Source: a virus. Taken from it: 34,563 nucleotides of DNA. The translations under genes and the position numbers were made by a program. Position 1 is the stretch's first letter. Each line of letters starts with the position of its first letter. Below, piece after piece: positions 1-34,563 of the stretch. The notes below the pieces were generated by a model. The model did no database searches. It was not told the origin of the DNA and saw nothing but the letters and a program-made list of their open reading frames with translations. The stretch covers positions 1 through 34,563 of IMG/VR virus record IMGVR_UViG_3300022602_000256; one strand, given 5' to 3'.

Positions 1-122
1 TATTCACATATCAACGGAATAAATTGACCTGCAAACCAATCTCTCAAATCCATACCTGTATTAGTGCAGGTAGCAATATGACCATCTATTGTTTTTTCAT
101 ATGTATGTGGGAATGCTTTCAT
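1..122 (-). CDS. Partial small phage protein (second copy of the 33293-33505 gene)
   Basis: Only the first 40 codons are present, and the 3' end is cut by the window edge. The protein begins MKAFPHTYEK and is identical over the visible part to the product of 33293-33505. The start is the ATG at 122-120, which overlaps the TGA stop of the upstream 66-aa gene as ATGA and is preceded by a GGGG-rich ribosome site. Function is unknown. Its amino acids are probably folded (motif MDLRDWFAGQF), a pattern seen in many small phage proteins of this kind. If the two window ends were joined, the reading frame would hit TAG at once, so circular closure at this point would give a 40-aa truncated copy. Confidence 0.7.
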   Translation of the reverse strand, partial: MKAFPHTYEKTIDGHIATCTNTGMDLRDWFAGQFIPLICE

Positions 123-319
123 TCTTGTCCCCTTGCACGAATAGCTTGAGCACAAATTAACTCAACCCTTAATGTGTAGTAATCGCTTATGCTATCCATA
201 GCATCACACACCTTTGCGCACTCCTCACGTTCATCTTCAGCAATAGCATCAACAATTGTGCGTACCATACCCTCACTAAAGTGTTCTAAAAGTATCTGTA
301 CCGCTGTATCTTTAATCAT
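119..319 (-). CDS. Small acidic phage protein, EREECAKVCDA family (copy 1)
   Basis: A 66-aa protein with the motif EREECAKVCDA followed by a C-terminal CAQAIRARGQE, a pattern very common in small hypothetical proteins of proteobacterial phages. It differs from the copy at 33502-33702 by two conservative changes (V/I). It overlaps the next gene downstream by ATGA and starts inside the end of the upstream 55-aa gene. There is no signal peptide or membrane segment. The two spaced Cys residues do not form an obvious zinc site. Biochemical role is unknown. Confidence 0.75.
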   Translation of the reverse strand: MIKDTAVQILLEHFSEGMVRTIVDAIAEDEREECAKVCDAMDSISDYYTLRVELICAQAIRARGQE

Positions 320-479
320 TCTTATCTCCTTGCTGTTCTATAAATGTTCTTTTAATAATTTCTATGGCATTATGGAATTGATCACTCGCTTTACCAGTTG
401 AAAGAGTCCTAGCCAACACAAGTGCTTCAAGTGCAACTGCTAACGCATAATCTTTAGTTAATTTTTCTTCTTTAGTCAT
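312..479 (-). CDS. Small helical protein, 55 aa
   Basis: An ATG at 479-477 opens a 55-aa frame (MTKEEKLTKDYALAVALEAL...) ending with TAA at 312. Its start overlaps the TGA of the 119-aa gene upstream as ATGA. Its end overlaps the start of the 66-aa gene by 8 nt, which is the tight packing expected of real genes in this operon. The composition predicts one or two amphipathic helices. It also carries a diverged version of the linker seen at the right end (GCAAGGAGATAAGAATGA). No family recognised. Confidence 0.65.
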   Translation of the reverse strand: MTKEEKLTKDYALAVALEALVLARTLSTGKASDQFHNAIEIIKRTFIEQQGDKND

Positions 480-966: not shown

Positions 967-1203
967 TTAAAATCCTATGTCATCATCCTTTTTTTCAAAG
1001 CTAAGTGTTCTTTCTTTTGGAGGATTAATCCATGCCCAGCCAGACCAAGGAGGGTCACAAACTGGTATTGAGTCTATCTTAAGCATGTGTCCTTGTGGTG
1101 TATCAATAATAGACCCAAGCCTATGATATTTGTTCTTTTTGTTGCCATCCCTGTCTGTGTATGTGCCAACAATGGTGCTCAATTCTGATATTACTTTAGA
1201 CAT
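967..1203 (-). CDS. Phage protein of unknown function linked to recombination genes
   Basis: A 78-aa protein starting MSKVISELSTIVGTYTDRDG and ending in an acidic tail (EKKDDDIGF). Its start lies 8 nt inside the end of the exonuclease gene, so it is translated as part of the same unit. Short beta-rich sequence and an acidic C-terminus resemble phage single-strand-binding-type proteins, which often accompany ERF and YqaJ genes. No motif proves this. Calling it an SSB would be guesswork. Confidence 0.55.
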   Translation of the reverse strand: MSKVISELSTIVGTYTDRDGNKKNKYHRLGSIIDTPQGHMLKIDSIPVCDPPWSGWAWINPPKERTLSFEKKDDDIGF

Positions 1204-1810
1204 TTAAGTTCCTTAATTTATTTACTTTATCTTCTAGCTCTTTTAAAAACTGGATTACTTCAGTCTCTAATTCAGCCAAATATGCTTGATCTAAATCAAC
1301 TCTTTTGCAAAAAAGTTGAAGATTCTCAGGCATCCTGGGGTCATAGCTCACAAAGTCACACCAGTTAGTCTGTGTGCAACCCATTTGCCATGTCATTTGG
1401 GTAATGTACTTGCTAGGCATTTTGCCAGATAACAAAGTGTCAACGTGAGTGGCTGTGTTTGGGCATTTGATCTCCAACAACCCTCCATCAACCAAGCCAT
1501 CTGGACTTGCACCAGACATCTCAATTTTGGGATGCTGGACAAATCCTACCTGGTTAACCATGCAGTTGTACTTGACCTCATAGCTTGCTCTAGCCAATGG
1601 CTCAGTCTCAGTCCCCCACTGCATAGCAGAATTGCTAAAAGACTCACTAGGCTTGCCTGTAAGCCTCTCACATAAAAGTTGAGCCATATAGTTATCCCTG
1701 CTTGTAGAATAGCCTGATTTGGTTTTTGCTACTATGTCTGCAACTCTAGATGCTGTGACCTTTCCTAGTCTAGCCTGAAACCACTCATCTGTGCCTTGTT
1801 CTATTTCCAT
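1196..1810 (-). CDS. YqaJ/lambda-exonuclease family recombination nuclease
   Basis: A 204-aa protein of the YqaJ viral recombinase family (PD-(D/E)XK fold, related to lambda Red alpha). Visible motifs: GTDEWFQARLGKVTAS at residues 6-21, the conserved E in WGTETEPLAR (E70), SPDG (D104), EIKCP (E113 and K115) and a Q-helix at YITQMTWQM. These give the metal site and the DNA-binding helix of this nuclease class. It is expected to resect one strand of double-stranded ends 5' to 3' and hand the overhang to the annealing protein encoded just upstream. Start and the upstream stop overlap as TAATG, a typical coupling for two proteins that act together. Confidence 0.9.
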   Translation of the reverse strand: MEIEQGTDEWFQARLGKVTASRVADIVAKTKSGYSTSRDNYMAQLLCERLTGKPSESFSNSAMQWGTETEPLARASYEVKYNCMVNQVGFVQHPKIEMSGASPDGLVDGGLLEIKCPNTATHVDTLLSGKMPSKYITQMTWQMGCTQTNWCDFVSYDPRMPENLQLFCKRVDLDQAYLAELETEVIQFLKELEDKVNKLRNLNV

Positions 1811-2391
1811 TATTTAGCCTCCAATTTCTTTTTCATTTTGTCTTTTACAGCAATTACTTTAAGTTGCCAAGGTTTATCACCATCAGTTGCTGAAATAGCC
1901 TTAACAAAGTTTTTCTGCAACTCTGGTAAATCTTGGCTTTGAGCTATTGCCTCTAACCAATCAGCCATTTCAGATTCATTGACATTAGATTTTGGTTCTG
2001 GTTTTCTAGATGCCATATTGCCATCATCATCTTCTGGAGCAATGCCACAGGCACTCATCAGGGAGTACCTCCTTGCATAAGTCAAAGCACTCCCATAACC
2101 CTGTGGGTCTTGTTTGCTTGCAGGAACATGCAAAACACCACACTCCAAAGTCTCCCCAGATTCATGCAGAAATATGGTTTCTACACTTACTCCAGTTCCA
2201 TTTTCATATAGTTTTTGCATCATGCCTATGCCATTGTTATTTAAAGCATCAATTACAGCCTCCACACAAGCTGATAGATCTGCATACTTGGATTTGAAGT
2301 GTGGGTTAGTGCTAGACTTTAAAGCCGGTCCAAACTCTTTTTGTGCCTTTACAAATGCTGTTGCTATTAACTTTCCACCTTGATTAGTCAT
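1810..2391 (-). CDS. erf: ERF-family single-strand annealing protein
   Basis: A 193-aa protein matching the ERF superfamily of phage annealing proteins: N-terminal LIATAFVKAQKEFGPALKSS, the YADLSACVEAVIDALNNNGIGM segment in two parts, and the family signature GYGSALTYARRYSLMSACGI at about residues 97-116. These proteins form rings or filaments on single-stranded DNA and anneal complementary strands. The start chosen is the ATG at 2391, behind GGGGAAC and overlapping the previous stop as ATGA. An upstream in-frame ATG at 2442 would add an unlikely 17-residue extension. Paired with the adjacent YqaJ nuclease, it forms a two-component homologous recombination system. Confidence 0.9.
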   Translation of the reverse strand: MTNQGGKLIATAFVKAQKEFGPALKSSTNPHFKSKYADLSACVEAVIDALNNNGIGMMQKLYENGTGVSVETIFLHESGETLECGVLHVPASKQDPQGYGSALTYARRYSLMSACGIAPEDDDGNMASRKPEPKSNVNESEMADWLEAIAQSQDLPELQKNFVKAISATDGDKPWQLKVIAVKDKMKKKLEAK

Positions 2392-2585
2392 AATGTTCCC
2401 CATGTAATTAAAATAAATAAAATAATTGAAATAATAATGCAAGCTGTGATTACCATCTTATCTTCTTTGTCAAACTTTTCATTCTCAAAATTTGGCTCTG
2501 GATGTTCAGGAAATGCATCAGCTAGTGTTCTTGGAAATGTCTTTGTTGTAGGATTAATATTCCCTTTTCTGAATTTAATTGTCAT
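2388..2585 (-). CDS. Small membrane-anchored phage protein
   Basis: A 65-aa protein beginning MTIKFRKGNINPTTKTFPRT and ending with one hydrophobic segment (MVITACIIISIILFILITW, residues 44-62) just before the C-terminus, so it is probably a tail-anchored inner-membrane protein. A longer in-frame start exists at 2681, but it would overlap most of the 62-aa gene, whereas the ATG at 2585 overlaps it by only 11 nt. Proteins starting with this MTIKFRKGN motif recur in phages. Function is unknown. Confidence 0.6.
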   Translation of the reverse strand: MTIKFRKGNINPTTKTFPRTLADAFPEHPEPNFENEKFDKEDKMVITACIIISIILFILITWGTL

Positions 2586-4253: not shown

Positions 4254-4549
4254 GCTTTAAAAAATCAGAAACTCAAAATGAGCCAGAAAAAGAAGTCTAT
4301 GGACTATGTTCTAGGTGCATGTCCAGGCAGTTAAATTCAGTCTTAATAAACTTTGGGACTACATGTGAATCTTGTTTTAATGCCTATTGTGAAGCACCTA
4401 GTCCTTATGATTTATCCTACAAAAAGTATGAGGGTGATCCAAAAGGATGGGCAAAAAGGATAATTGATAGATATGAGTCTGGTGAAAAAGTTAGACCAAT
4501 TTCATTAAAGTTTGCAAAAGAAGCATTAAGAATTAAGGAAGAAATATGA
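4250..4549 (+). CDS. Small protein with a CxxC...CxxC zinc knuckle
   Basis: A 99-aa protein. CSRC (about residues 20-23) and CESC (39-42) would hold one zinc ion. The rest is a helical segment that ends DPKGWAKRIIDRYESGEKVRPISLKFAKEALRIK. It overlaps its neighbours on both sides by ATGA, between the DUF1376 protein and the ATPase fusion. The position next to a replication initiator suggests a loader or accessory protein, but no known family was recognised. Confidence 0.55.
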   Translation: MSFKKSETQNEPEKEVYGLCSRCMSRQLNSVLINFGTTCESCFNAYCEAPSPYDLSYKKYEGDPKGWAKRIIDRYESGEKVRPISLKFAKEALRIKEEI

Positions 4550-5616
4550 AAACATTAATATCTACTGTTGAACAAGATGAAATTACAAAAGAATGTTCAA
4601 AATCTTTTGATTTTCAATTTGATGGGTCTACCAAGTTTCAAGTTCCTTTTTTTGAAAAACCTGAAAATTTTCAAATAGGCTTGATTGTTGGGGCATCAGG
4701 CAGTGGCAAATCTTCCATACTATCTACCATAGGAGAGACTGAAAAAGTGTCTTGGAATCCTAATAAAGCCATTTGTAGCCATTTTGAAAATGCTTTGGAT
4801 GCTCAAAACAAACTCAGTGCTGTTGGACTTAATTCTGTGCCATCTTGGTTGAAACCATATCATGTGCTTTCTATGGGAGAAAAGTTTAGAGCTGATTTGT
4901 CAAGATCACTTAAAGACAATGCCATCATTGATGAATTTACTTCTGTTGTAGATAGAAATGTGGCTAAATCTTGTTCTTATGCCATAGCTAGACACATTAG
5001 AAAAAATGGTTTGAAAAATATGGTGTTTGCCTCTTGTCACTATGACATCATTGAGTGGTTACAACCTGATTGGATTTTTGATACAACTACAAGCAGACTT
5101 ACAGTCGCAAGGGGGTCAGTTCGGCCAGTTCTGGAATTGGAAATACTTCCTTGCACAACCGAAGCATGGTCAGTCTTTCGCAACCATCACTATCTCTCAG
5201 GAAACCTTAATAAAAGTTCACGATGTTGGATCGCAACATGGGAGGAAACGCTTGTTGGATTTGCCGCAGCTATCACTCTTCCCTCTGGAACATTAAAAAA
5301 AGCATGGAAAGGTCATAGGACTGTGATATTACCTGATTTTCAAGGTCTAGGTTTTGGAGTTCGAATTAGTGATGCAATTGGGCAAATATTTGTAAATGAG
5401 GGATGTAGATATTTTTCTAAGTCTAGCCATATTAGACTTGGTGAATATAGAAACAATTCACCTTTGTGGAGACCAACTGCTCACAATATGCAAGATAGAA
5501 GTAGGCAATATAAGAAATCCTTAGAACACAAAACAGACTTTTTTTGGTCTAAAGAAATGACCGAAAGACATGCAGATAGGATTTGTTATTGTCATGAATA
5601 TATAGGAGCAATATGA
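4546..5616 (+). CDS. ABC-type ATPase fused to a GNAT acyltransferase
   Basis: A 356-aa two-domain protein. Residues about 1-185 are an ABC-class ATPase without membrane segments: Walker A GASGSGKS (49-56), signature-like LSMGEKFRADLS (108-119), Walker B IIDE (127-130), and a switch His in FASCHYD (H165). From about residue 196 a GNAT fold follows: RNHHYLSGNLNKSSRCWIA, then VILPDFQGLGFG with the acyl-CoA loop (about 260-271). Comparable ABC-GNAT fusions occur in other phages. A Mom-like role in modifying phage DNA bases is possible, since Mu Mom is a GNAT-fold enzyme, but no residue seen here proves it. Codons 187-244 have base use unlike the rest. It overlaps both neighbours by ATGA. Confidence 0.75.
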   Translation: MKTLISTVEQDEITKECSKSFDFQFDGSTKFQVPFFEKPENFQIGLIVGASGSGKSSILSTIGETEKVSWNPNKAICSHFENALDAQNKLSAVGLNSVPSWLKPYHVLSMGEKFRADLSRSLKDNAIIDEFTSVVDRNVAKSCSYAIARHIRKNGLKNMVFASCHYDIIEWLQPDWIFDTTTSRLTVARGSVRPVLELEILPCTTEAWSVFRNHHYLSGNLNKSSRCWIATWEETLVGFAAAITLPSGTLKKAWKGHRTVILPDFQGLGFGVRISDAIGQIFVNEGCRYFSKSSHIRLGEYRNNSPLWRPTAHNMQDRSRQYKKSLEHKTDFFWSKEMTERHADRICYCHEYIGAI

Positions 5617-6096: not shown

Positions 6097-6361
6097 GATT
6101 GATAATAACCAAAAAGCCATTGTGGAGGCTCTCAGAGCTGTTGGAGCTACTGTTTACCATATCAAAGAGCCTTGTGACCTACTGGTTGGCTATCATGGTC
6201 AGACCTTGCTTATGGAGGTCAAAAACTTAGATAATTCTTATGGCAAAAAAGGCTTTAATGCAAACCAAAAGCACTTTGCAGAAAATTGGAAAGGAGGAGC
6301 TTTTTGCCTTGTAGATAGCATTGAATCAGCTCTCAGAATGTTAAACATAATGGTTGATTAA
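6080..6361 (+). CDS. VRR-NUC-like PD-(D/E)XK nuclease
   Basis: A 93-aa protein. After an N-terminal helix (NNQKAIVEALRAVGATV), CDLLVGYHGQTLLMEVKN holds D33, E46 and K48, the D-EXK catalytic set of small VRR-NUC/restriction-fold nucleases. This is followed by NANQKHFAENWKGGAFCLVDS, which is the Q-helix region of these enzymes. Single-domain proteins of this type in phages are thought to cut branched or replication-fork DNA. Position between replication and NinB genes supports a recombination role. Confidence 0.75.
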   Translation: MRTASRIDNNQKAIVEALRAVGATVYHIKEPCDLLVGYHGQTLLMEVKNLDNSYGKKGFNANQKHFAENWKGGAFCLVDSIESALRMLNIMVD

Positions 6362-6362
6362 T

Positions 6363-6776
6363 ATGCAATACAAACTTGTTAATCCCCAGCAAGGCACAGC
6401 CCTAATGAAAACCTTATGGGCAAAGATGAAAACAGCATTGGAATCAGGGAAAATACTAGTTATGATTGTTCAAGAGGAAACTAGGACACATGACCAAAAT
6501 TCTAAGTTTCATGCAATTATTGCTGATATAGCAAAACAGGCAGAGCATTATGGAGCTAAGTGGGATGCAGAATCTTGGAAAAGATTTTTAATAGACCAAT
6601 TTGCCTCAGAAACAGGGCTAAGAGCTTCCAAAGTAGCTCCATCCTTAGATGGGTATAGGATTGTGCAGTTGGGGCTTCAGAGCCGTGCTTTTACAAAAGA
6701 ACAAGCCAGTCAATTTGTGGACTGGTTAGAGGCTTGGTGTGCTCAGAAAGGAATTGAACTTGAAAGCAAACCCTAA
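6363..6776 (+). CDS. ninB: NinB-family recombination protein
   Basis: A 137-aa protein of the NinB (lambda Orf) family: N-terminal YKLVNPQQGTALMKTLW, EETRTHDQNSKFHAIIADIA, the WDAESWKRFLIDQFASETG segment and C-terminal QFVDWLEAWCAQKGIEL. NinB binds single-stranded DNA and helps load recombinases, standing in for host RecFOR. The ATG at 6363, two bases after the upstream stop codon, is preferred. An in-frame TTG at 6354 would add three residues. No strong ribosome site is visible, so reinitiation from the upstream gene is likely. Confidence 0.85.
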   Translation: MQYKLVNPQQGTALMKTLWAKMKTALESGKILVMIVQEETRTHDQNSKFHAIIADIAKQAEHYGAKWDAESWKRFLIDQFASETGLRASKVAPSLDGYRIVQLGLQSRAFTKEQASQFVDWLEAWCAQKGIELESKP

Positions 6777-30312: not shown

Positions 30313-30455
30313 TTCTTTTTCTTGGCTTTCTTTTCTGCTTCACGTTTAACATTCAGGGCAATCGCAACCGCTTGTTTCTGTGGTTTACCAGCCTTGATTT
30401 CTTTTTCTATGTTCTTTCCAACATTCTTCTCGAGTTTTGACTTAATTAATGGCAT
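30309..30455 (-). CDS. Small basic Lys-rich protein, 48 aa
   Basis: Begins MPLIKSKLEKNVGKNIEKEI, continues KAGKPQKQAVAIALNVKREA and ends EKKAKKKK. The AGKP.KQAVAIA motif is shared by small phage proteins of unknown function. ATG at 30455 follows AAGGAAG and starts 14 nt inside the end of the homing-endonuclease gene. It was probably directly downstream of the GroES-like gene before the endonuclease inserted. Confidence 0.65.
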   Translation of the reverse strand: MPLIKSKLEKNVGKNIEKEIKAGKPQKQAVAIALNVKREAEKKAKKKK

Positions 30456-31038
30456 ATTCTTCCTTTCTTTTAGATTTACTCATTTTTTGTCTTGTTTCAT
30501 TACTTATTGGATTTAATTCAAATCTCTTTTTTTGCGATTCTCTCATTTTTTGTCGTGTTTCTTCTGAAACTTCACGACCTTTCATTTTTTCCCTCATGTA
30601 ATCTTTATGTTCTTGGGTATGATTTTTACCAGCAAAAGTACATTTTTCAATCATTTTTTGAGTTCTAATACGTTTTTTATTAGATTCTCGTACAGCATCT
30701 TTTACATGATCTGGTAATTTTATGCCTTTTGCATATTTATTACCTATCATTGTTTTTGATTTATTTCTTCTAGCAATTTCATATAACCTTGAATTAAAGT
30801 ATGCTTCCCTGCCTTTCATAATAATAAATGCACTCCATATTTGATTATTATCATAAATATGCGCTAACAAAGCATGAGCAATAAAATGCTCTCTAGCCGT
30901 CAAAAATACCAAATTATCTAAATTATCAGAACCACCCATACTTTTTGGCAAAATATGGTGAAGCTCTTGATATTGATTTAATTTTTCTCTATTTTTAGCT
31001 TTATTTATTAAAGCCTCATACACTTTCTGGTGATTCAT
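30442..31038 (-). CDS. HNH homing endonuclease with NUMOD3 repeats
   Basis: A 198-aa free-standing homing endonuclease. HNH core: ELHHILPKSMGGSDNLDNLV (H27, H28, N42) and TAREHFIAHALLAH (H51). The C-terminal third has three NUMOD3-type DNA-binding repeats (HTQEHKDYMREKMKG, SEETRQKMRESQKKR, SNETRQKMSKSKRK). Such enzymes cut homologous DNA lacking them and spread by repair. It overlaps the GroES-like gene by 23 nt at its start and the 48-aa gene by 14 nt at its end. No intron or intein signature was seen at its flanks. Confidence 0.85.
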   Translation of the reverse strand: MNHQKVYEALINKAKNREKLNQYQELHHILPKSMGGSDNLDNLVFLTAREHFIAHALLAHIYDNNQIWSAFIIMKGREAYFNSRLYEIARRNKSKTMIGNKYAKGIKLPDHVKDAVRESNKKRIRTQKMIEKCTFAGKNHTQEHKDYMREKMKGREVSEETRQKMRESQKKRFELNPISNETRQKMSKSKRKEEYAIN

Positions 31039-32375: not shown

Positions 32376-32664
32376 TTTTAAATGGTCTGGTTGCTTTCAG
32401 TTTTTGGGTTGTGCCATCAAATACAAATTCAATGTTATGTTTCCCAGTTTTGGAAAACTCTAAATAATCTCCATTAAGTCCTAATTTAAAGACTACATTA
32501 GCTGAAACTGCAAAATCAGACTTTTCTTCAGGTTTTATTCTGTATTGAAGATTTAAGTCCCAATCAGGATATTGCTCATCCACCCATTCGTTATATGGAT
32601 TTTTAACTTGAATTTCAGCTCCATCTGCCCATTTTTTAATCAATTCTGAATGTTTGTGTTTCAT
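32368..32664 (-). CDS. Small beta-rich protein, KHxxLIKxWADGAEI type
   Basis: A 98-aa protein starting MKHKHSELIKKWADGAEIQV then NPYNEWVDEQYPDWDLNLQY, RIKPEEK. This N-terminal KHxELIxxWADGAxIxxR..W.D...P.W....YRIKPE pattern is widely found in small phage proteins of unknown function. The C-terminal half adds strands (VVFKLGLNGDYLEFSKTGKH). ATGA overlap with the next gene. Confidence 0.65.
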   Translation of the reverse strand: MKHKHSELIKKWADGAEIQVKNPYNEWVDEQYPDWDLNLQYRIKPEEKSDFAVSANVVFKLGLNGDYLEFSKTGKHNIEFVFDGTTQKLKATRPFKND

Positions 32665-33296
32665 TTGTTTCGCTCCTTACATAATTGTTCTGTGGCTCTC
32701 ATCAAATGATCGAGATCAACAGCTTCTTGTTCTTCACCATTGGAATTGATTTCTTTTTCAAATGTCAATAGTTTAATGTTTTCTAAATCCTCATCAGTCA
32801 ACCCTACCCATTCTTTATTACCTATAAACTTTTCAGCACATGATAAGCAATACAGCGCATAACCACCACCATTTCCACATTCAGCACATCCTTGTTGTGG
32901 TGTTGTGTAGAGAGGTATTTTTGGCAAATTAACTACTGTTGCTGTTTCCCAAGATGTGTATTTAGCCCACTCAAGTTTTCTTTGTTCAACATTAATATAT
33001 GCCACAGGCTCATTCTGCTCTTGTTTTTGTATATGGTAGTGTGTGGCTTTAATCCACAACTCACCTTCAAATTCTTTTGCTGAAATGTATCCTTGCCTCA
33101 TTGCTTCTCTATAACTTAATGCCTTATCAATTTGGGTATTGGCATATTTTGTTAATTTGTCTTCAATCATGTGTTCTTTTTCTGCTATTAGTTTGGCAAA
33201 AATCTCAATAAATTCTTTAGGTATTCTTAAATTAGGTATGTGATTGCATTTTTTGTATGCAATAGTAGCCGTCTCAATAATTTCTTCTGTAGTCAT
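32661..33296 (-). CDS. EREECAKV-family related protein with zinc-finger centre, 211 aa
   Basis: The N-terminal 35 residues (MTTEEIIETATIAYKKC, FAKLIAEKEHMIEDKL) match the N-terminus of the 75-aa gene at 33881-34108 (TEEIIEMARQAG, FAKLVAEKEREE), so the two share a module. The middle has a NVEQRKLEWAKYTSWETATV and IPLYTTPQ segment of a type often at phage protein ends, then CAECGNGGG...CLSCAEKF, a two-CxxC zinc finger. The last part is acidic. ATG at 33296 is coupled by ATGA to the upstream gene. Function unknown. Confidence 0.6.
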   Translation of the reverse strand: MTTEEIIETATIAYKKCNHIPNLRIPKEFIEIFAKLIAEKEHMIEDKLTKYANTQIDKALSYREAMRQGYISAKEFEGELWIKATHYHIQKQEQNEPVAYINVEQRKLEWAKYTSWETATVVNLPKIPLYTTPQQGCAECGNGGGYALYCLSCAEKFIGNKEWVGLTDEDLENIKLLTFEKEINSNGEEQEAVDLDHLMRATEQLCKERNK

Positions 33297-33505
33297 TCTT
33301 GTCCCCTTGCTTTCATCATTGCGTCTGCCATTGCATAACAAACTCTTGCGTTATTTTCATAATCCCATCCGTTTCTATCTGAATATTCACATATCAACGG
33401 AATAAATTGACCTGCAAACCAATCTCTCAAATCCATACCTGTATTAGTGCAGGTAGCAATATGACCATCTATTGTTTTTTCATATGTATGTGGGAATGCT
33501 TTCAT
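33293..33505 (-). CDS. Small phage protein ending ADAMMKARGQE (full copy)
   Basis: A 70-aa protein: MKAFPHTYEKTIDGHIATCT, NTGMDLRDWFAGQFIPLICE, YSDRNGWDYENNARVCYAMA, DAMMKARGQE. A truncated, identical copy starts at 122. The segment MDLRDWFAGQF....C..DA is seen in small phage proteins of unknown role. ATG at 33505 overlaps the previous stop as ATGA; an in-frame upstream ATG at 33538 lies in the 66-aa gene and is rejected. Confidence 0.65.
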   Translation of the reverse strand: MKAFPHTYEKTIDGHIATCTNTGMDLRDWFAGQFIPLICEYSDRNGWDYENNARVCYAMADAMMKARGQE

Positions 33506-33702
33506 TCTTGCCCCCTTGCACGAATAGCTTGAGCACAAATTAACTCAACCCTTAATGTGTAGTAATCGCTTATGCTATCCATAGCATCACATATCTTTGC
33601 ACACTCCTCACGTTCATCTTCAGCAATAGCATCAATAATTGTGCGTACCATACCCTCACTAAAGTGTTCTAAAAGTATTTGTACCGCTGTATCTTTAATC
33701 AT
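33502..33702 (-). CDS. Small acidic phage protein, EREECAKVCDA family (copy 2)
   Basis: A 66-aa protein, 64 of 66 residues identical to the product of 119-319 (two V/I exchanges). EREECAKICDA and CAQAIRARGQE motifs as in copy 1. The ATG at 33702 overlaps the stop of the 60-aa gene as ATGA, where copy 1 instead sits behind a different gene, so the same cassette has been placed in two contexts. Confidence 0.75.
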   Translation of the reverse strand: MIKDTAVQILLEHFSEGMVRTIIDAIAEDEREECAKICDAMDSISDYYTLRVELICAQAIRARGQE

Positions 33703-33881
33703 TCTTGTCCCCTCTTTCTTTTATCAACATACCCACACCAACATTTTTGGTTTGGCATGAGAATCTTTGGTTGAACCTTTGGCAAACGAACAGTGCAATC
33801 AGGGCATGGCATACCTAAACGGTCTTTACGTTCTTTCTTGTATTCTTTCCAATCTTTCCACACTTCAGCCATATCACCCAT
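33699..33881 (-). CDS. Small basic zinc-ribbon protein, 60 aa
   Basis: A 60-aa protein: basic helix (VWKDWKEYKKERKDRLGM), then CPDC and CWCG separated by about 22 residues, which form one zinc-ribbon, ending YVDKRKRGQE. ATG at 33881 overlaps the upstream stop as TAATG. Shares the RGQE end with its neighbours. Function unknown, possibly nucleic-acid binding. Confidence 0.6.
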   Translation of the reverse strand: MGDMAEVWKDWKEYKKERKDRLGMPCPDCTVRLPKVQPKILMPNQKCWCGYVDKRKRGQE

Positions 33882-34108
33882 TATTTACCCCTTGCACGAA
33901 TAGATTCAGCGCACAAATCTGCGGCATTTGAATATCTACCGTTATCATACGCATCACACACCTTTGCACATTCCTCACGTTCTTTTTCTGCTACCAGTTT
34001 GGCAAACTTTTCAGCATATTCAAACCCAATAATCGGCATCCAATTTACATCGGTTGCAATATGAAGTCCTGCTTGTCTAGCCATCTCAATTATTTCTTCT
34101 TCAGTCAT
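33881..34108 (-). CDS. Small phage protein, TEEII/EREECAKVCDA family, 75 aa
   Basis: First gene of the leftward accessory cluster. MTEEEIIEMARQAGLHIATD, then GFEYAEKFAKLVAEKEREEC, AKVCDAYDNGRYSNAADLCA and ESIRARGK. It joins the N-terminal module of the 211-aa gene to the C-terminal EREECAKVCDA module of the 66-aa genes. ATG at 34108 is preferred because AGGAG lies just upstream and the promoter is 20 bases away; a longer frame to 34234 would run through that promoter. Confidence 0.75.
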   Translation of the reverse strand: MTEEEIIEMARQAGLHIATDVNWMPIIGFEYAEKFAKLVAEKEREECAKVCDAYDNGRYSNAADLCAESIRARGK

Positions 34109-34234: not shown

Positions 34235-34445
34235 TTGATTTATTCAAAGGCTAAACCCAAGATTCCCATGAGGTAGCGATTCATTCGATACAGCGCTTGT
34301 CCCACCACTTTCACTGTATCTTGTCTAGTCCCTCGCTAACAGGCTAGGACGGTTATCCATCGGGTGTGTAATGGCCGTATGTTCTATTCCGAGCTGCCCA
34401 TGTAGGCACACTGCTATCGTGCGGAGTACGGGTGGGAGGCAGAAA
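34235..34445 (-). other. Non-coding structured region with CpG-normal composition
   Basis: There is no convincing reading frame here. Several inverted repeats can fold: GATACAGTG with CGCTGTATC on the minus strand (34287-34295 with 34312-34320; the G-U pair of the minus-strand RNA would be a C-A mismatch on plus), a bulged stem GTCTAG/CTAGGAC around 34323-34349, and TGCC/GGCA at about 34402-34415. CpG is frequent, unlike most of the window. Could be a functional RNA, a packaging or recombination site, or acquired DNA. Confidence 0.45.
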
Positions 34446-34556
34446 GCAAAAAACCCTTACTGAAAGATACGAGCTTTAGGCTTGGTTGCCGCATACAAGT
34501 CTGCTATACCAGGATCTTGTAGCTTTGACGAAGCCCGCTCCTTCAGTAAGGGTTCG
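34446..34556 (-). ncRNA. Candidate structured small RNA with terminator-like end
   Basis: On the minus strand a perfect 13-bp stem AACCCTTACTGAA / TTCAGTAAGGGTT (34542-34554 with 34452-34464) ends in a T-run (34453-34448), like a rho-independent terminator, but encloses about 77 nt that fold further: GAGC/GCTC, GGCTT/AAGCC and GCTACAAG/CTTGTAtGC with a bulged base. All helices nest without conflict. The 5' end lies at or beyond the window edge, so it may be the 3' part of a longer RNA. It is not a tRNA, and no known RNA family was recognised. Confidence 0.5.
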
Positions 34557-34563
34557 GGATGTC

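Follow-up and report, generated by a model that had tools for sequence, protein, structure and literature searches.

A long-standing question about phage mosaicism is whether it comes from random joining followed by selection or from homologous exchange at boundary sequences. It is raised here by a 34,563-base virus record from IMG/VR, designated linear and analyzed at full length (the window), in which the sequence AGGGGRCAAGAATGA is found at the junctions of three small-gene pairs at the right end (minus strand) and again at the left end. The terminase, P22-like portal, ERF, YqaJ, NinB, and P22-Cro-like proteins encoded in the window are marks of a P22-like phage, and three of them are relevant to recombination.

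1196..1810, minus strand: YqaJ exonuclease, candidate recombination enzyme (PF09588, E=2.6e-31; phrog_149)
1810..2442, minus strand: ERF single-strand annealing protein, candidate recombinase (PF04404, E=7.5e-25; phrog_2324)
6354..6776, plus strand: NinB/Orf recombination mediator (PF05772, E=2.8e-24; phrog_72)

Elsewhere in the window, positions 4546-5616 (plus strand) encode a protein of unknown function (phrog_11143) in which ABC-type ATPase and GNAT acetyltransferase parts are combined, and positions 30442-31038 (minus strand), near the terminase region, encode a homing-endonuclease-like HNH endonuclease with a NUMOD3 motif. An Rfam scan of the window gave no match.

At the right end, genes of 75, 60, 66, and 70 aa lie head to tail on the minus strand and are followed by a 211-aa gene. 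These genes, their counterparts at the left end, and the copies of the junction sequence, hereafter the linker, are as follows.

33881..34108, minus strand: 75-aa gene, with a TEEII head, the AEKEREECAKVCDA module, and an IRARGK end; TAATG junction (ORF list)
33699..33881, minus strand: 60-aa gene, ends in KRGQE (weak match to phrog_29557)
33699..33713, minus strand: linker copy AGGGGACAAGAATGA, end of the 60-aa gene and start of the 66-aa gene; upstream limit of the duplicated stretch (exact match; repeat end)
33502..33702, minus strand: 66-aa gene, with a MIKDTAVQILLEHFSEGMVRTI head and an EREECAK...IRARGQE tail (ORF list; related loci)
33502..33516, minus strand: linker copy AGGGGGCAAGAATGA, end of the 66-aa gene and start of the 70-aa gene (exact match, R form)
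33293..33505, minus strand: 70-aa gene, MKAFPHTYEK...MKARGQE; 81 aa if counted from an upstream TTG (phrog_2201 match)
33293..33307, minus strand: linker copy AGGGGACAAGAATGA, end of the 70-aa gene and start of the 211-aa gene (exact match)
32661..33296, minus strand: 211-aa gene, with a TTEEII head, IAEKE, and a WVGLTDED module (ORF list)
312..479, minus strand: 55-aa gene, ends in QGDKND and a stop; upstream of the left 66-aa copy, in place of the 60-aa gene (ORF list)
316..330, minus strand: linker variant AGGAGATAAGAATGA in the GDKND frame, end of the 55-aa gene and start of the 66-aa copy (2 mismatches)
119..319, minus strand: second copy of the 66-aa gene, within a 98% identical region (ORF list; repeat comparison)
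119..133, minus strand: linker copy AGGGGACAAGAATGA, end of the 66-aa copy and start of a truncated 70-aa copy (exact match)

A preliminary description of this DNA had placed AGGGG(A/G)CAAGAATGA at three right-end junctions, and it is indeed present there without mismatch (33699-33713, 33502-33516, and 33293-33307), as well as at 119-133 at the left end. The modules it had reported as common (TEEII..., FAKL(V/I)AEKE, and EREECAK(V/I)CDA...) were likewise found in the 75-, 66-, and 211-aa proteins. The RGQE or RGK endings hold for the four right-end genes (RARGK, KRGQE, RARGQE, and KARGQE) and for only one of the two left-end genes for which they had been claimed: the downstream neighbor of the 66-aa copy runs off the end of the contig, and the upstream 55-aa gene ends in QGDKND, which is the linker read in another frame, with 2 mismatches (316-330). 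Similarly, the ATGA overlap described for the junctions applies to the RGQE genes and not to the RGK gene, which is joined by TAATG. The four exact copies in the window are far beyond chance. Allowing up to 3 mismatches gave 8 matches, whereas shuffled sequences averaged 2.2 and reached 8 in 1 of 100 shuffles. The linker is confined to the small-gene cluster; elsewhere in the window there are 3-mismatch matches only, in numbers close to the chance level.

The two ends of the window are related, positions 1-330 being a 98% copy of 33384-33713, a repeat absent from the preliminary description. This similarity stops exactly at an ATGA linker junction, upstream of which, in the direction of transcription, one copy has the 55-aa gene and the other the 60-aa gene. 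The repeat is either a tandem duplication or two population variants joined in a circularly permuted assembly, and under both readings the limit of exchange is the linker. It suggests a circularly permuted or variant-containing assembly rather than a complete linear genome.

Upstream of the cassette operon, positions 34438-34563 (minus strand) contain a strongly conserved structured RNA (GAGCGGGCUUCGUCAAAGCUA, a stem, and UAUGCGGCAACCAAGCCUAAAGCUCG), which is also present in L020, L260, L231, L027, L229, and 49 viral contigs. Its closing stem covaries, resembles a terminator, and ends in U6, and across 6 sequences 10 of the 38 predicted pairs of the element show compensatory changes. In an alignment of 45 sequences, visual inspection shows the inner loop to pair with a stretch located upstream of the hairpin (CACAGA/TCTGTG in L305, CATCGA/TCGATG in L307, CGTTGA/TCAACG in L314, CAACAC/GTGTTG in L291, and TCACGG/CCGTGA in L315), so that a pseudoknot is likely. 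Comparison with Rfam gave no convincing match for this element, which is a candidate new phage RNA.

Using the 66-aa protein as bait, we collected 78 related viral loci, which come throughout from assemblies of partly overlapping metagenomes and represent kin phages rather than independent samples. In these loci, the head of the 66-aa gene (MIKDTAVQILLEHFSEGMVRTIVDA...) is joined to many different tails and then to many different genes, and the junctions that follow it mostly read AAGGGG(A/G)CAA(G/A)AATGA. A scan of viral contigs found the exact 16-mer AAGGGGACAAGAATGA in at least 119 stretches, compared with 6 for the reversed letter order, and one locus (L178) has five linkers within 1.3 kb. 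No relative of the 66-aa protein was found in 50,697 records of cultured phages, in which the cassette DNA has only matches of 34-41 bases. Recurring IMG dataset numbers suggest that the phages with the linker come from lakes. Bacterial genomes yielded 3 matches to the linker pattern, two of which look like chance, their downstream ORFs being unlike the phage small genes. The remaining one, on a contig of a beta-proteobacterial MAG (L280), is a true cassette with an MKTKQEIKEEI gene. Since the 16-mer was present only in that MAG itself among 300 genomes of its family, no prophage home was found. In three viral loci (L165, L186, and L251), the gene right after the linker begins like a YqaJ exonuclease (MTEQRTE(A/E)WFxQRLGK...), and a recombination gene may thus itself occupy a linker cassette.

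We then asked how freely the flanking genes assort. Each 16-mer was scored by the number of unlike flanks on each side, the bait gene and its own junctions being masked. Of 198,158 16-mers in the 78 loci, AAGGGGACAAGAATGA ranked top, with 22 left and 22 right flank clusters; next came 16-mers overlapping it and, as the first unrelated ones, the start module ATGACTAAAGAAGAAAT (MTKEEI) and parts of a second linker. With flanks clustered at 65% identity, 155 distinct linker contexts fall into 68 clusters on the left and 69 on the right, numbers that vary with the threshold (60-70% was tried). The contexts contain 140 distinct left-right pairs, against 146.9 +/- 2.4 when partners were shuffled, which indicates that the pairing of neighbors is nearly random; because contexts with identical 30-base flanks were dropped beforehand, leaving fewer repeated pairs, this comparison shows breadth and not a rate. 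There are 25 four-gamete squares among the contexts. For example, the tail SDSNAIRARGQE stands before ten unrelated genes, one right-hand head cluster comes after fourteen different tails, and relatives of the 55-aa gene locus have the same upstream gene with six different downstream genes. The linker is a short sequence that different phages have in common at their gene boundaries, where the flanks are unrelated. The preliminary description had proposed comparing related phages in this way, and the genes on either side vary almost independently while the junction stays. We also looked for the pattern it had named as refuting its proposal, a fixed gene order with a junction no better kept than its flanks, and found the opposite.

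The limits of similarity between phages coincide with the same sequence. We compiled 656 distinct similarity ends between loci (at least 85% identity over at least 60 bases, bait excluded), of which 144 are at linkers, 14.6-fold over expectation; at other ATG starts with a Shine-Dalgarno (SD) sequence the excess is 2.7-fold. Similarity starts cluster at -15 from the ATG and ends at 0 to +14, which are both edges of the linker. Each linker site has on average 1.31 breaks, compared with 0.34-0.47 for other starts within 1 kb (0.47 for those that are ATGA starts) and 0.21 for random positions within 1 kb. Loci L004 and L005 illustrate this, as they are 99.0% identical across 4,017 bases up to a linker and have unrelated genes beyond it. 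Moreover, in 11 comparisons one phage has A-linker-B-linker-C where the other has A-linker-C; in one of these, the 65-aa gene of L034 has nothing in its place at the left-end junction of the window. Different heads and tails are also joined within genes, at EREECAK codons, so that exchange is not limited to the linker. With near-independent flanks, breaks at the linker, and linker-bounded genes present in one phage and absent from another, the earlier proposal of a portable linker allowing small genes to be swapped or duplicated is supported.

What is kept at these junctions is DNA. Among 159 contexts, the linker is read as RGQE and a stop, overlapping the upstream gene, in 130, as GDKND or GDKNE and a stop, in another frame, in 13, and in 8 is noncoding and lies beyond the upstream stop. 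An upstream gene that uses the GDKN frame takes its last residues from whichever gene comes next. Codon usage agrees: of 60 RGxx ends that overlap the next gene by ATGA, 55 have AGG for Arg, a codon used at 22 of 199 internal Arg positions (11%), and 56 have GGA or GGG for Gly. This AGG bias and the three readings of the linker show that the constraint is on nucleotides and not on a protein tail, namely on the AGGGG ribosome site, the spacer, the start, and the stop. The SD-like AAGGGG is separated from the start by ∼6 bases, the spacer ACAAGA is kept as well, and the ATGA is an overlap of stop and start. Linker columns in the alignment of exact matches were not counted as evidence of conservation because this would be circular.

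A second, unrelated linker, AAGGAGNNNAACACATGA (AAGGAG..AACACATGA), which gives KEKNT and a stop overlapping ATGA, is present at L067-L073, L076, and other loci. Its 65 distinct contexts comprise 26 clusters of left flanks and 50 of right flanks, and it behaves like the first.

The reading that we consider probable is that AAGGGGACAAGAATGA is a nucleotide-level gene linker that also provides homology for cassette exchange, plausibly via the ERF, YqaJ, and NinB/Orf proteins of the phage. Its 15-18 bases contain the final codons and the stop codon of one small gene, an SD-like site, and the overlapping ATGA start of the next. Any gene with a linker at its 3' end would fit before any gene with a linker at its 5' end, making the genes interchangeable cassettes. 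The linker, often lengthened to 18-24 bases, would give a short homology for joining phage DNAs, most plausibly by ERF, a P22-type annealing protein, the YqaJ exonuclease, and NinB/Orf, short-homology annealing being the simplest proposal for the exchange step. It would also keep translation coupled, as is plausible from the ATGA overlap and the SD position. The usual minimum homology for Red and RecA is ∼30 bp, and the 15-24 bases of the linker fall below it, whereas rare RecET events have been seen at 5-13 bp (PMC2327257) and Rad52-like phage recombinases have been reported in relaxed homologous recombination (PMC3945230). A broader reading, which we regard as evenly balanced, is that a standard DNA connector has evolved, combining a frame-independent stop/SD/start with an exchange site for an annealing recombinase, and that at least one second connector has evolved in parallel. 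If true, accessory genes assort as freely as the parts used in modular cloning.

Selection only might produce a similar pattern, if recombination occurred anywhere, breaks at gene boundaries survived, and AAGGGGACAAGAATGA were a favored translation start reached or kept by selection. The 2.7-fold excess of breaks at other gene starts and the correct position of the SD-like sequence in the linker are in its favor. However, most ATGA starts nearby lack the linker (187 others within 1 kb) and have fewer breaks per site (0.47 vs 1.31), and in the window the linker is restricted to the small-gene cluster. Moreover, AAGGGG pairs with the anti-SD through a G.U pair and is therefore not the optimal SD, yet the spacer ACAAGA is kept too. 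We consider this explanation unlikely. A conserved protein tail (AIRARGQE) that had its own function, DNA identity being a by-product, would account for the many upstream proteins of the EREECAK...AIRARG family, but it was rejected on the frame use of the linker, namely the GDKND/GDKNE reading in 13 contexts and the noncoding position in 8. It is further weakened by the codon choice (AGG in 55 and GGA or GGG in 56 of 60 ends) and by the use of linker DNA by the unrelated tails EVLSRGQE and HPDGRGQE, and we regard it as very improbable. As a caution, a common C-terminal "motif" such as RGQE can be the signature of a ribosome site and not a protein feature.

Equally hard to credit is an artefact of metagenome assembly in which unrelated phages were joined at a short repeat, even though the evidence comes wholly from assembled metagenomes and the two ends of the window itself disagree at a linker. 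Final assembly graphs usually use k-mers longer than 16-24 bases, so a repeat of this length is below the usual size, and the same combination recurs in several datasets (L028-L032 come from five IMG datasets and L004-L006 from three). The least probable explanation is a site-specific recombinase that recognizes the linker in the style of an integron or shufflon. Cassette-like gain and loss between identical short sites would fit it, but the 16-mer is not palindromic, no such recombinase was found among the window proteins searched, and the second, unrelated linker (AAGGAG..AACACATGA) behaves alike, which is better explained by homology than by one recognition site. Direct reading of the 16-mer also reveals no inverted repeat, and hence no folded attC-type site as in integrons, and there is no tyrosine integrase gene among the subset of window proteins scanned. 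Exchange by homology at a nucleotide-level linker remains our preferred reading.

Among known systems, the closest element in position is the start-associated sequence (SAS) of cluster K mycobacteriophages, with similar motifs in Microbacterium cluster EF phages (PMC3203893, PMC7302621). The SAS is a 13-bp repeat that includes an SD sequence, is unusually conserved for a ribosome site, and is located just before the starts of different gene families in the non-structural half of the genome; the linker, too, is a conserved SD-containing repeat that immediately precedes the starts of different gene families. The SAS consensus, GGGATAGGAGCCC in cluster K or GGGAAAGGACCCC in cluster EF, is not matched by the linker, and whereas SAS mostly have an upstream gap of >50 bp, 130 of 159 linker contexts are RGQE-frame overlaps with the upstream gene. 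About half of SAS are paired with a 17-bp inverted repeat, the ESAS, and the roles discussed for SAS are translation or protein binding rather than demonstrated exchange. Termination-reinitiation ATGA pairs (PMC6728339) have the same -4 overlap of stop and start, known for coupled translation, but they are a general operon feature and, unlike the linker, have no common mobile junction sequence. At the gene 67/68 junction of Brujita and Island3 (PMC3029335), two neighboring genes have the same C-terminal end, and repeats of ∼50 bp bound one gene that is either present or missing. That is a single case with a longer repeat, compared with a 16-bp linker and 11 present/absent comparisons here.

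The closest idea, as represented in PMC2327257 and PMC3029335, is that of the boundary linkers separating lambdoid phage modules (Clark et al. 2001, phage HK620). These too are short gene-boundary sequences common to different phages and proposed as places of homologous exchange. As they are presented in those two reports, the difference is that here one sequence has many unrelated neighbors on both sides, in up to 5 copies per short stretch (L178), is used in two frames and as noncoding DNA, and contains the stop/start overlap within itself. Boundary sequences are not findable at most mosaic joints (PMC3029335), whereas here one short sequence is found at many joints between freely assorting genes.
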